Below, one piece after another: positions 12,522-30,947 of a stretch of 30,947 nucleotides of DNA. Every line of letters starts with the position of its first letter. Positions within the stretch are counted from its first letter, which is position 1. Below the pieces are notes generated by a model. That model did no database searches. It saw only the letters and a program-made list of their open reading frames with translations, and was not told the DNA's origin. Both the position numbers and the translations under genes were made by a program. The stretch is from a virus. Location of the stretch: IMG/VR virus record IMGVR_UViG_3300035670_000920, positions 1 through 30,947 of that record, one strand, 5' to 3'.

Positions 12522-13042
12522 TTCGAGGCCTCCTCCTTAGGCCAGTTATGAATCTGTTGATTCTTTTGTTTTATAATTTCTAGTTGTTTCATTTCAATTT
12601 TGTGACGCTCTTCAAAAATTACAAGTTCCATGACCATCATAATTTCATTAAGCAGCAGGTGCCTGTTCATTACAATGTCGCCGTTTTGCGGAAGGTCTTC
12701 CAGGTAGTGGTCGAGCAGCTTGTCAACGATGTAGCGGCGAATTTTGGACGGCTCTTGGCCCCGCACGCCGTTGGCGAACTCCTTACGCTCGTTGTCGTTG
12801 TTGCTTATGGCAAAGGCTACCACGGTGCAGATGTCGTCCGCCATCTCATCCTGGTGGCGGCTGGCTCGGCTGTTGGCCGGGGCATCTTTCAGGAGCAACC
12901 TCAGGATCTTGCTGAAGCTGCGGCGCATCACTACTTTTTTCTTTTGTTGCATAAATACAGGCTCTTTTTCAGCGGCACGCAGGAAGGCGGCAAGTGCCTT
13001 CCTGCTGTATGCCGCGAGGATTAGTGTTTGTTTGTTGATCAT
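12518..13042 (-). CDS. Hypothetical replication-operon protein
   Basis: A 174-aa, mostly helical, charged protein with no family I recognise. It has a basic stretch near residues 32-50 (QQKKKVVMRRSFSKILRLLL), a middle region with FANGVRGQEPSKIRRYIVDK, and a long C-terminal helix (about 128-165, LLLNEIMMVMELVIFEERHK) that could be a coiled coil. ATGA overlaps on both sides (13039-13042 with the helicase loader, 12518-12521 with the HTH gene) fix the start and show tight translational coupling. Its position suggests a partner of the replication proteins. Confidence 0.75.
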   Translation of the reverse strand: MINKQTLILAAYSRKALAAFLRAAEKEPVFMQQKKKVVMRRSFSKILRLLLKDAPANSRASRHQDEMADDICTVVAFAISNNDNERKEFANGVRGQEPSKIRRYIVDKLLDHYLEDLPQNGDIVMNRHLLLNEIMMVMELVIFEERHKIEMKQLEIIKQKNQQIHNWPKEEASK

Positions 13043-13851
13043 TTGCGGCGGCTTGCTCCGTCCAGTGGTACCACCACAAACATCTCCCTCATTCGGTCGG
13101 CCACCCGGCTGCCGTACACATCAGCTATCTCAGAGGGTGACAAGTTGGTCGTCATGTGGGTGATGGCTTTGCCGTAGCAGAATCGCTCGTATCGCCGGCC
13201 TATGATGCGCTCCATTACTGGCACACGATCTCCATAGTGCATTATTTCCCTCGGCTCTTGGCCGAAGTCGTCAAAGCAATAGTCGTCCCATGAGTAATCG
13301 TCCAGCACGTCCAGGCTCTTTCTTACCTTGTCCGCCAGATCAACGGTCCTGATTATTTTGAAATGTCGAAAAGGCACAGGCGCTGACTGGGCAAAAATCT
13401 GCATGGCATCCATCAGCAGCGTCTTGCCGCTTCCGATGCTGCCTGAGAGCATCAGGCCCTTGTGAAGGGGCCAGCTGCAGGTCGGGTCAAGGATCAGATA
13501 GCGCACGATGTCGGGCAACACCTCCATGTTGTTGGCATCAACTACAAAGCCGCTGCCGTTGCGTGCGCGAGTGATGCCGCACAGGATGGCCCAGAACATA
13601 TACCGACCGTCCTCGTATGACATGACCTGGCGGCCTGGCTTCTTTTGATCTCGGAATGTCATGGCCAGTGCCTTCTGGATGGCGGTGGGGCCATCCTCGC
13701 CGCGCAACTTGGCGGCGTAGTCTTCCGGGATCTCAGACAGTTGCCAGCGGGTGTACTTGTCGCGGAGGCCGTCTTGCTGGCGCCGGAGCTCCTCCAGGGT
13801 GAACTGGGCAGCAGGTGCCTCAGTCCCAGGCGAGGGTGTTTTTTGTGGCAT
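13039..13851 (-). CDS. DnaC-like helicase loader ATPase
   Basis: A 270-aa AAA+ ATPase with Walker A GSIGSGKT (137-144), Walker B YCFDDFG (about 191-197), a sensor-1-like MTTN (233-236), and arginines in YGSRVADRMREM (249, 253) typical of the DnaC/IstB family. Residues 1-130 hold a helical N-terminal domain that should contact the replicative helicase. The phage encodes no replicative helicase of its own in this window, so it probably loads the host DnaB at the phage origin. The gene lies directly downstream of the O-like initiator, overlapping it by 32 bases, the same initiator-loader order as lambda O-P and many other phages. Confidence 0.88.
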   Translation of the reverse strand: MPQKTPSPGTEAPAAQFTLEELRRQQDGLRDKYTRWQLSEIPEDYAAKLRGEDGPTAIQKALAMTFRDQKKPGRQVMSYEDGRYMFWAILCGITRARNGSGFVVDANNMEVLPDIVRYLILDPTCSWPLHKGLMLSGSIGSGKTLLMDAMQIFAQSAPVPFRHFKIIRTVDLADKVRKSLDVLDDYSWDDYCFDDFGQEPREIMHYGDRVPVMERIIGRRYERFCYGKAITHMTTNLSPSEIADVYGSRVADRMREMFVVVPLDGASRRK

Positions 13852-14905
13852 ACTTCACTTTTTTTCTCCACGACTCCGGCGTGATCTTGCTGTCCCAGCC
13901 GGCGGCAGTGGTGTTGTTTGATGTTGGCTTCTTTTTATCGAGAATGTCAAAATAGAGATTGGTGTGCTTGCCCCGCACGGAGTAGTTCACGACCTCGATG
14001 AGTTCAGAGAGGCTGTGGTTGTTAAAGTCATTGAGCAGCGTGCGGAGCTCTACGCTGCCCGTGGCGGGTCGGTCGCGCTCTTTGCAGTGCTGCAGCCAGT
14101 CGAGGCAAAGTGCAGCATGCGCGGGGGTTGAAAATTTGGCTTCCAGGCCGTCGTTGATCCAGACCTGCTGTGCCTGGTTGCCAATCCGGGCTGCGAGCGC
14201 CGCGGCGCCGCCCCCCGTTAAAGAATTTTGGCCGCCGCCTTGTGTTTGCTTTTCGTTTTTCTTTTCAAGTTCATTTTCAAAAAAAACGGCGGCGGCCTTT
14301 TCTTCTACTTCTTCTTCTTCTTTATTTTCTTTATTATTCTTAATACTTTCTTCTATTTTGTTTCCGTAGTGTTTCCCTTCTGTTTCCATAGTGTTTCCAT
14401 AGTGTTTCCCTTCTGTTTCCATAGTGTTTCCATAGTGTTTCCCTTCTGTTTCCGCAGGCCTCATAAGTGTTTGAAATACAGGCGCTAAGGATGCCGTTAT
14501 AGTGTTTCCAAAATCTGCCCTATCATTATAAAAAGAGTTTTGAGGGGTGTTGTATTGCTCAAAATTGACTAACTTGATGTGATTGACACCCTGCGTTTTG
14601 TCAACTATGATCATTTGGCGAGCTATCAGGAAGTTAATGAAGGTAAAAACCTTCTTCACGCTCCAACCCCATTTTTCTGCCAGGTAGCGATGAGAAGCAA
14701 CCAGCTCACCTCGGTGGATCATGATGAAGTTGATGTACTGGCTCTGTGGGACATAGCGCTTTGGCTGATCTCCGTAGTGTGCCAGCCTAATCAGGTCGAT
14801 CCAGGCTTCCGCTCTGGAGAACTGGCGCTTGTCATTCCAGAAGTCGTGGTCAAACAACTTGCGAGAGATCATCACAAAGCCTGCATTTTGATTGTTGCCT
14901 TCCAT
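13820..14905 (-). CDS. O-like replication initiator with internal iteron array
   Basis: A 361-aa protein. Residues about 10-115 resemble a winged-helix DNA-binding domain of phage replication initiators (FVMISRKLFDHDFWNDKRQF, ELVASHRYLAEKWGWSVKKV). Residues 151-183 are three near-identical 11-residue repeats (ETEGKHYGNTM), followed by a very acidic/basic low-complexity linker (about 184-230), then a C-terminal domain (about 245-361) likely to bind the helicase loader. The DNA repeats that code for 151-183 look like origin iterons, as inside lambda O. The ATG at 14905 is preferred over a GTG at 14908. The amidase stop lies only four bases upstream, and the helicase loader overlaps downstream. 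Family assignment rests on architecture and context. Confidence 0.78.
   Translation of the reverse strand: MEGNNQNAGFVMISRKLFDHDFWNDKRQFSRAEAWIDLIRLAHYGDQPKRYVPQSQYINFIMIHRGELVASHRYLAEKWGWSVKKVFTFINFLIARQMIIVDKTQGVNHIKLVNFEQYNTPQNSFYNDRADFGNTITASLAPVFQTLMRPAETEGKHYGNTMETEGKHYGNTMETEGKHYGNKIEESIKNNKENKEEEEVEEKAAAVFFENELEKKNEKQTQGGGQNSLTGGGAAALAARIGNQAQQVWINDGLEAKFSTPAHAALCLDWLQHCKERDRPATGSVELRTLLNDFNNHSLSELIEVVNYSVRGKHTNLYFDILDKKKPTSNNTTAAGWDSKITPESWRKKVKYATKNTLAWD
14268..14358. other. AT-rich, strand-asymmetric segment beside the iterons (possible unwinding element)
   Basis: Immediately beside the iteron array is a stretch whose plus strand is almost all T and C (runs such as CTTCTTCTTCTTC and TTTATTTTCTTTATTATTC), apart from a short GGCGGCGG insert near 14289. 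Low GC content and strong purine/pyrimidine asymmetry beside iterons is the layout of the lambda origin. It codes for the charged linker of the initiator, so composition could be partly protein-driven. Confidence 0.45.
14359..14457. repeat. Nine 11-bp tandem iterons inside the initiator gene; putative replication origin
   Basis: Ninety-nine bases consist of three 33-bp repeats, each made of three 11-bp units that start TGTTTCC. The unit tails are GTAG, CTTC, ATAG / ATAG, CTTC, ATAG / ATAG, CTTC, GCAG. A further single TGTTTCC occurs at 14503-14509. The 11-bp period is close to one DNA turn, so bound proteins would line up on one face. The array is in frame (11 codons per 33 bp), and encodes the ETEGKHYGNTM repeats of the initiator. 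Function as the origin is inferred from analogy with lambda. Confidence 0.72.
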
Positions 14906-14909
14906 CACA

Positions 14910-30199: not shown

Positions 30200-30421
30200 T
30201 GAGTGAGCACGGGGGAAGGGGGGGGCGATTTCTGCGCGCAAGATGCCTGGACATCGCCGTCCCTCGCCGCGCACACACACACGCAAATTTTAGGGGGGGG
30301 AGTTAGTGCACAAATAGCACACACTGCCGGGGGTGATTGTTACAGGTGTTACAGATGTTACAGGTGTTACAGGTGTTACAGATGTTACAGATGTTACAGG
30401 TGTTACAAAAAAAAAAGAAGC
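30200..30421 (+). other. 222-bp non-coding region between tail tube and chaperone genes
   Basis: This is the longest gap in the structural operon. It contains G-runs (near 30210-30226, 30291-30300 and 30330), a GGCGAT/ATCGCC pair near 30224-30257, a CA-repeat near 30270-30284, and the 9-bp tandem array at 30338-30409, then an A-rich leader to the ATG at 30422. The reading frame is open through it, but the Gly/Cys-Tyr-Arg product is not credible. It may lower or time chaperone expression relative to the tube protein. Confidence 0.55.
30338..30409. repeat. Eight 9-bp tandem repeats (TGTTACAGR)
   Basis: Eight perfect-period units of TGTTACA plus a two-base tail: GG, GA, GG, GG, GA, GA, GG, AA. 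They occupy 72 bp directly before the A-rich leader of the chaperone gene. No spacers, so not CRISPR. Possible roles are a protein-binding array, an RNA element, or a slipped-strand repeat; none is shown. Confidence 0.85.
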
Positions 30422-30853
30422 ATGTACAAAGTAAAAATCTCAAGCAAGTTTTACCCGGTGCACTTTGGCACCTGGGCAATAAAGTTGGTGGTAGAGGCGC
30501 TGGGCCTTGATGAGCGCAACTTCCTCGCAGGCCTTGACATTGTTCGGCTGAATGACCAGCTTGTGATTGCCAAGATAGGACTGATTGAAGGATCCAAGTA
30601 TGCGGCAAGAAATTACGGGCAGCCCATCCCGGAATCTATTCAACACCTGGATGACGAGAGCACCGCAGCGCTCCTGGATGATGCTCCGGAAGCCTTGGAG
30701 CAGATACTCTGCATCTACATCGAACAGACCTACGGGAAAAAAGCAGATGTCTTGATCGAGGAAGTAGAAAAGCAAGGCTCTGATCAGAGCGAACCGCTAA
30801 AAAAAGCCATGGGGAAAGTGAGGGCAGTCATCGCCTCTCTTTCCAAAGAATAG
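30422..30853 (+). CDS. Tail assembly chaperone, G-like (upstream part of the frameshift pair)
   Basis: A 143-aa protein between tail tube and tape measure genes, the site of lambda gpG. It is helical, with VHFGTWAIKLVVEALGLDER and EALEQILCIYIEQTYGKKAD, and an acidic segment (HLDDESTAALLDDAPEA). Lys127-Lys128 are coded by A_AAA_AAA (30799-30805), a standard -1 slippery heptamer; the -1 frame is open from there, across the contig junction, into the T-like ORF that ends at 431. The zero frame ends at 30851-30853 (equal to 31-33). So G and a G-T fusion should both be made. The longer frame back to 30203 runs through the tandem repeats and is rejected as the start; the ATG at 30422 follows an A-rich leader. 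Confidence 0.85.
   Translation: MYKVKISSKFYPVHFGTWAIKLVVEALGLDERNFLAGLDIVRLNDQLVIAKIGLIEGSKYAARNYGQPIPESIQHLDDESTAALLDDAPEALEQILCIYIEQTYGKKADVLIEEVEKQGSDQSEPLKKAMGKVRAVIASLSKE
30799..30805 (+). promoter_or_regulatory. Programmed -1 frameshift site (A_AAA_AAA)
   Basis: In the zero frame the codons are CTA-AAA-AAA-GCC; a shift of -1 at the second AAA continues AGC-CAT-GGG without a stop to the stop at 431. A small stem (GAGG near 30819 with CCTC near 30834) lies about 13 bases downstream and might act as a stimulator. Same position and direction as the lambda G/GT shift. Confidence 0.72.
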
Positions 30854-30947
30854 AGGAGATTGGACTGGGCTGGCTTGGCCTTCGTCCGGTTGAGCTTCAC
30901 GAGATGACATTGTCGCAGTTCAACAATGCCTTGGAGGGCTGGGGGGA
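30821..30947. repeat. Right copy of 127-bp terminal duplication
   Basis: Identical to 1-127; see that entry. It contains the end of the G-like chaperone gene (stop 30851-30853) and the first bases of the T-like ORF (ATG at 30904). Confidence 0.93.

Follow-up and report, generated by a model that had tools for sequence, protein, structure and literature searches.

An array of nine 11-bp iterons, located inside the gene of a DnaD-like initiator and adjoined by AT-rich DNA, very probably forms the replication origin of this phage. It would be an origin of the type of oriL and gene 38 of SPP1, bound by the product of its own gene, with melting of the AT-rich segment and loading of a helicase. The proposal of the earlier note that the iterons form an origin within the initiator gene is well supported by a test with synonymous codons, by an 11-bp periodicity found across the protein family, and by an association of iteron sequence with the expected contact residues of a winged helix. 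An intragenic iteron origin in an initiator gene is already known from SPP1; the family-wide 11-bp phasing and the helix/iteron association may be new, and no earlier description of such a pattern or code was found in the open-access literature, a scope that leaves the original SPP1 origin papers outside.

The iteron array and its genomic setting

The window, that is, the whole stretch of DNA analysed (30,947 nucleotides), holds a complete genome, with identical copies of a 127-bp terminal direct repeat as its first and last bases (1-127 and 30821-30947), which closes to a circle of 30,820 bp. The motif TGTTTCC occurs 10 times in it, always on the + strand. Nine occurrences follow one another within 14359-14453, each exactly 11 bp from the next, as iterons TGTTTCCNNNN arranged in three 33-bp blocks (14359..14457, + strand); the array measures 95 bp up to the last full motif, or 99 bp if counted as nine units. 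TRF over 14359-14453 finds period 11 (8.6 copies, 82%) as well as period 33 (2.9 copies, 98%). On the coding strand the iterons read GGAAACA every 11 bp, in frame within the ORF 13820-14908 (-), and they encode the 11-residue peptide ETEGKHYGNTM three times, the last copy being altered. The motif positions and TRF thus confirm the nine in-frame units in three 33-bp repeats described earlier. The further TGTTTCC also reported there is present at 14503..14509 (+), though 56 bp from the last array unit and out of 11-bp phase, and it is possibly an extra site or may have arisen by chance. No other run of at least two TGTTTCC motifs at 11-bp steps was found on either strand of the whole genome with one mismatch allowed, nor, with up to one mismatch across the whole genome, a second, oriR-like origin with the same repeats.

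Read along the gene, the array is directly followed by a segment (14268..14358, - strand) that is AT-rich, purine-rich on the coding strand, and predicted to be the DNA unwinding element. It encodes a Lys/Asn/Glu-rich linker, and the GC content of its third codon positions (GC3) is 0.17 vs 0.57 and 0.70 in the parts of the gene on either side; the low value bears out the AT-rich purine/pyrimidine-skewed segment noted beside the iterons. By thermodynamic stability it is one of the eight least stable sites of the genome, but not the minimum. The extremum of GC skew expected by the earlier note near 14.4 kb is absent from the cumulative curve of the closed circle; after detrending, the curve stays level between about 9 and 20 kb, with its minimum at 11.3 kb, the skew being uninformative on the origin. 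In the family, an AT-rich segment follows the array in 79 of 89 genes, and the GC-rich members favour A/T-ending synonymous codons after the iterons in 20 of 21 cases. In about half of the family the iterons are immediately followed by an A-rich repeat of 9 bp (AAYAATGAW-like, peptide NND/NNE), which may belong to the unwinding element.

The initiator gene (13820..14908, - strand) encodes 362 residues from GTG 14908, or 361 from ATG 14905. Its product matches the profiles of phrog_186 (E 3e-14) and phrog_2514 (E 2e-13), both comprising DnaD-like phage helicase loaders/initiators, over the N-terminal part and the linker, and the N-domain is 33% identical to that of SPP1 gp38 over 111 residues (E 2e-18; 5e-13 in the database search), placing the protein in the SPP1 gp38/DnaD-like family. 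The initiator had no Pfam match, the Foldseek matches were all generic winged helices with none below E 0.001, and a sequence search of the PDB returned nothing significant. The N-terminal winged-helix domain (residues ~9-120, 14546..14881, - strand), delimited by AlphaFold and the family alignment, is the predicted iteron binder. Its pLDDT is mostly 80-97 over residues 21-120, excepting the region around residues 41-60, and the model contains helices at 72-79 and 83-95, followed by a wing hairpin at 99-112. The second of these helices (VKKV..., 14621..14659, - strand) is the predicted recognition helix. The C-terminal part (residues ~240-361, 13820..14188, - strand), assigned by position and modelled with low to medium confidence, is presumed from that position to contact the helicase or the helicase loader.

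The 3' end of the initiator gene is overlapped by the next gene (13039..13851, - strand), the product of which is a DnaC-like helicase loader (phrog_50, E 1.5e-15; phrog_3277, E 1.8e-13); the first of these matches bears out the loader named in the earlier note. The same cluster includes genes for a VRR-nuc nuclease and for a small HTH protein. A tyrosine integrase gene with the domains Arm-DNA-bind_5 and Phage_int_SAM_5 is located at 17.2-18.5 kb. Together with the best matches of the initiator, which include Bacteroides phage BS-TP2, this integrase makes the Bacteroidota host suggested previously plausible, as a probable assignment only and not a proven one: the terminase search indicated no particular host group, and its one 91% relative is on a contig too short to contain the initiator. 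A tandem array of eight 9-bp units TGTTACARR (30338-30409), directly before a reading frame at 30422, lies nearly half a turn of the circle from the iterons (about 15-16 kb). Its motif differs from the iterons, and it could be an operator, a variable-length spacer or an accessory site.

With SPP1 and the order of the parts as guides, initiation in this phage would proceed along the following lines. Neighbouring winged-helix N-domains would each bind one 7-bp core (coding-strand GGAAACA), so that they line one face of the DNA at intervals of one helical turn. The complex so formed would melt the AT-rich segment beside the array, and the C-terminal part would then act with the DnaC-like loader to place the host replicative helicase on the single strand.

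Constraint on the DNA and alternative readings

The homologue in SPP1 has its origin at the same position in the gene, the AT-rich segment adjoins the array, a helicase loader gene is the neighbour, and no partition genes were recognised among the genes examined. All of this argues against a reading in which the array is an operator for self-regulation of transcription, or serves in partition or incompatibility, the origin being at another place. Such a reading could draw on the fact that a site within a transcribed gene could block RNA polymerase, as well as on the presence of the TGTTACARR array in the same genome, yet we consider it improbable.

The constraint on the repeat acts on the DNA, not on the peptide, because none of 2000 synonymous recodings, in which the amino acids were fixed and synonymous codons were redrawn from the usage of the gene itself, reached the observed 11-bp signal (lag-11 score 46.5 vs 8.9 +/- 3.4). 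The lag-11 self-similarity is likewise above that of all 200 whole-gene codon shuffles. Because 11 is not divisible by 3, each unit is in another frame than the unit before it, and one 7-mer is read in all three frames within each 33-bp block, and no peptide repeat shorter than 11 residues gives this period. The encoded ETEGKHYGNTM stretch is predicted to be disordered (AlphaFold, pLDDT ~34), and with the origin placed in the codons of such a linker the peptide there would be largely free to follow the DNA.

These results weigh against the opposite reading, in which the repeat is a feature of the peptide, a flexible or functional linker, and the DNA repeat is the consequence of coding and of a recent 33-bp duplication. 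Part of it holds, as the repeat is in frame and the 33-bp blocks are 98% identical, so that a recent in-frame duplication is certain and the array also grew in this way. The reading of one 7-mer in three frames, the loss of the signal on synonymous replacement, the predicted disorder, and the retention of 11-bp DNA spacing in relatives with a different core and peptide nevertheless leave it very unlikely. The single-protein search returned no close relatives of the initiator, and the drift of the peptide could therefore be viewed across the wider family only. There the 11-bp periodicity, along with the synonymous test, supports the statement of the earlier note that the peptide repeat is a by-product of the DNA repeat.

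Array and recognition helix across the family

Relatives collected by the N-domain alone, regardless of repeats, and supplemented with named phages amounted to 246 genes, 110 of which formed a non-redundant set at 85%. Self-similarity by lag, computed in these 110 genes downstream of the N-domain, has a mean z of 12.2 at lag 11, with 75% of the genes above z 4, and lags 22 and 33 are its harmonics. Lag 12 has a mean z of 3.7 (z>4 in 25%), lag 9 a mean z of 5.6 (with lag 18; z>4 in 55%) that corresponds to the A-rich repeats after the iterons, and the remaining lags stay below about 1.7. An 11- or 12-bp signal is found at the same place in 95 of the 110 genes, a clear array being absent in about 15, and 75 of them lie above all 60 of their synonymous replacements. 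The family is found in phages of Bacillota, Bacteroidota and Pseudomonadota. Lag-11 units are also present in Enterococcus EH-TP1, Bacillus Page and Pascal, Staphylococcus StB27 and PVL, and Sulfitobacter pCB2047-A; no clear lag-11 signal was seen in A403 (peak 22), a Vibrio phage (peak 23) or BS-TP2 (peak 12). The iteron words vary by lineage (GGAAACA, AAACGACA, CAAACCA, GGACAG, CGGAACA, CAGACCA, CAACACA, TGACACA and others). As far as sequences can tell, the architecture is conserved across the family, with the iteron word changing.

Exact-pattern scans of public contigs yielded similar numbers for the 11-bp step (27), the 12-bp step (24) and the reversed motif (16), and raw contig counts are therefore no evidence; the reversed-motif control was, moreover, not neutral, as it matched GGCAAACAAAG iterons of related initiators. 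A scan of genomes gave 41 matches, only about four of them in initiators. An alignment of 12 family sequences was dropped as a scanning profile, the sequences being too divergent. The similar counts, and the bacterial-genome matches, which are mostly simple tandem duplications outside initiators and indicate that such arrays do arise by slippage, would suit a functionless minisatellite, but the signal at the same place in genes chosen regardless of repeats and the association of iteron sequence with HTH residues make that reading scarcely credible.

Several variants of the arrangement were observed. A subgroup with [ST][ED][KR]xVR recognition helices has 12-bp instead of 11-bp spacing (L138, L150, L151, L152, L167, L170, L188, and BS-TP2, L036). 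In one initiator (L016:496-1500) the N-domain is separated from the iterons by an HNH endonuclease domain. Phage initiators of other families (phrog_16167/1408/428, phrog_8489/5708) have (GGAAACA N4) triples after the N-domain as well (L009:3691-4602, L018:1675-2397, L021:8751-10019, L024:2875-3825, L023:3230-4036, L033:4619-5239), so that the same 11-bp word goes with different types of initiator.

In the 93 array-bearing genes, the similarity of iterons between pairs of genes was set against identity at each N-domain column, overall identity being regressed out. The top columns were K84, R73, S82, N108, H72 and V83 by the 5-mer measure, and K84, R73, K85, V83, S55 and H72 by the PWM measure, and the best nine-residue windows start at 79-82. 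The correlations of single columns are small, 0.17 at most, because pairwise similarity is noisy. In the AlphaFold model, K84, R73, S82, V83, K85 and H72 are located at the N-termini of the two HTH helices, and the iteron-associated residues would thus largely coincide with the positions at which a winged helix is expected to contact DNA.

Among genes with an S[TV]K helix, six of nine contain at least two GGAAACA, as opposed to one of 83 without it. In two of the exceptions R at position 87 accompanies GGAACCA or GGAATCA, and the third has GGGCAAG. When the helix and wing columns were left out of the tree, five changes of GGAAACA were counted on it, and among three independent pairs, taken on supported branches, the motif in the helix is concordant in 2.6 on average and discordant in 0.0; three pairs are too few for significance, and the S[TV]K/GGAAACA coupling after tree correction is only suggestive. 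A helix/iteron code is likely in outline and unproven in detail. Its fullest form, to which we give an even chance, is that SPP1 gp38-type initiator genes throughout the family carry their origin as monomer sites arrayed at one helical turn, and that the recognition helix reads the sequence of these sites by a simple code: S[TV]KK with GGAAACA, SN[TN]K with CGACA, GSTKV with CAAACCA, SKxKV with GGACAG, and [ST]E[KR]KVR with TGACACA or GGGCACA at 12 bp. If that code is true, the origin and the specificity of the initiator co-diversify within one gene and are predictable from sequence. For most uncultured phages no replication origin is known. Should the family pattern hold, many genomes would reveal both their origin and its protein specificity in the sequence of the initiator gene, replicons that are compatible or cross-react would be predictable, and the joint change of an origin and its binding protein in one gene would be testable with existing natural variants.

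Comparison with known initiators and origins

The origin had been described as lambda-like, and the intragenic layout is indeed alike, with the iterons of lambda O also positioned inside the initiator gene between the DNA-binding and partner-binding parts, and with a loader gene adjoining. The label itself did not hold. No similarity to lambda O was detectable (best BLASTP match E 0.26), and lambda is annotated with four 18-bp iterons about 20-24 bp apart, whereas the units here are of 11 bp. By these tests lambda O would be an analogue, not a relative, the homologue being SPP1 gp38.

In RepA_N plasmids such as pSK41, a winged-helix N-domain binds Rep boxes located centrally in rep, the origin encodes the linker, and the structure is DnaD-like (PMC5703833). 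The winged-helix N-domain, the central position of the binding sites and the origin-encoded linker would be common to both systems, but RepA_N is a plasmid initiator with four Rep boxes, and the likeness drawn here is one of layout; the winged helix of a plasmid initiator (4pt7) was among the weak generic Foldseek matches (E about 0.04). In Staphylococcus phage 80alpha, the initiator ORF20 and the DnaC-like loader ORF21 suffice for plasmid replication, and ORF20 cannot be complemented in trans, which was taken to place the origin inside the gene (PMC5499656). The pairing of an initiator with a DnaC-like loader and the repeats at the corresponding place in the gene are shared, although the N-domain of ORF20 is not detectably similar and its repeats are spaced by 15/30 bp, not 11.

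SPP1 differs in its iteron core (AAACGACA / AAAAGACA, as opposed to GGAAACA here), in its recognition helix (SNTKV, here SVKKV), and in having its own helicase gp40, a different loader, gp39, and a second origin, oriR. The present phage has one array and a loader that is DnaC-like; oriR belongs to SPP1 and is not known as a defining mark of the family. The likeness extends to the homologous N-domain and to the 11-bp repeats that directly follow the winged helix and precede A-rich DNA, the AGAAACGACAG-type 11-bp units of gene 38 beginning at codon 120. In both phages the origin would thus lie within the gene of its own initiator as direct repeats with an AT-rich unwinding element, as in SPP1, where gp38 binds the direct repeats of oriL inside gene 38, adjoining an AT-rich DUE (PMC6316719).
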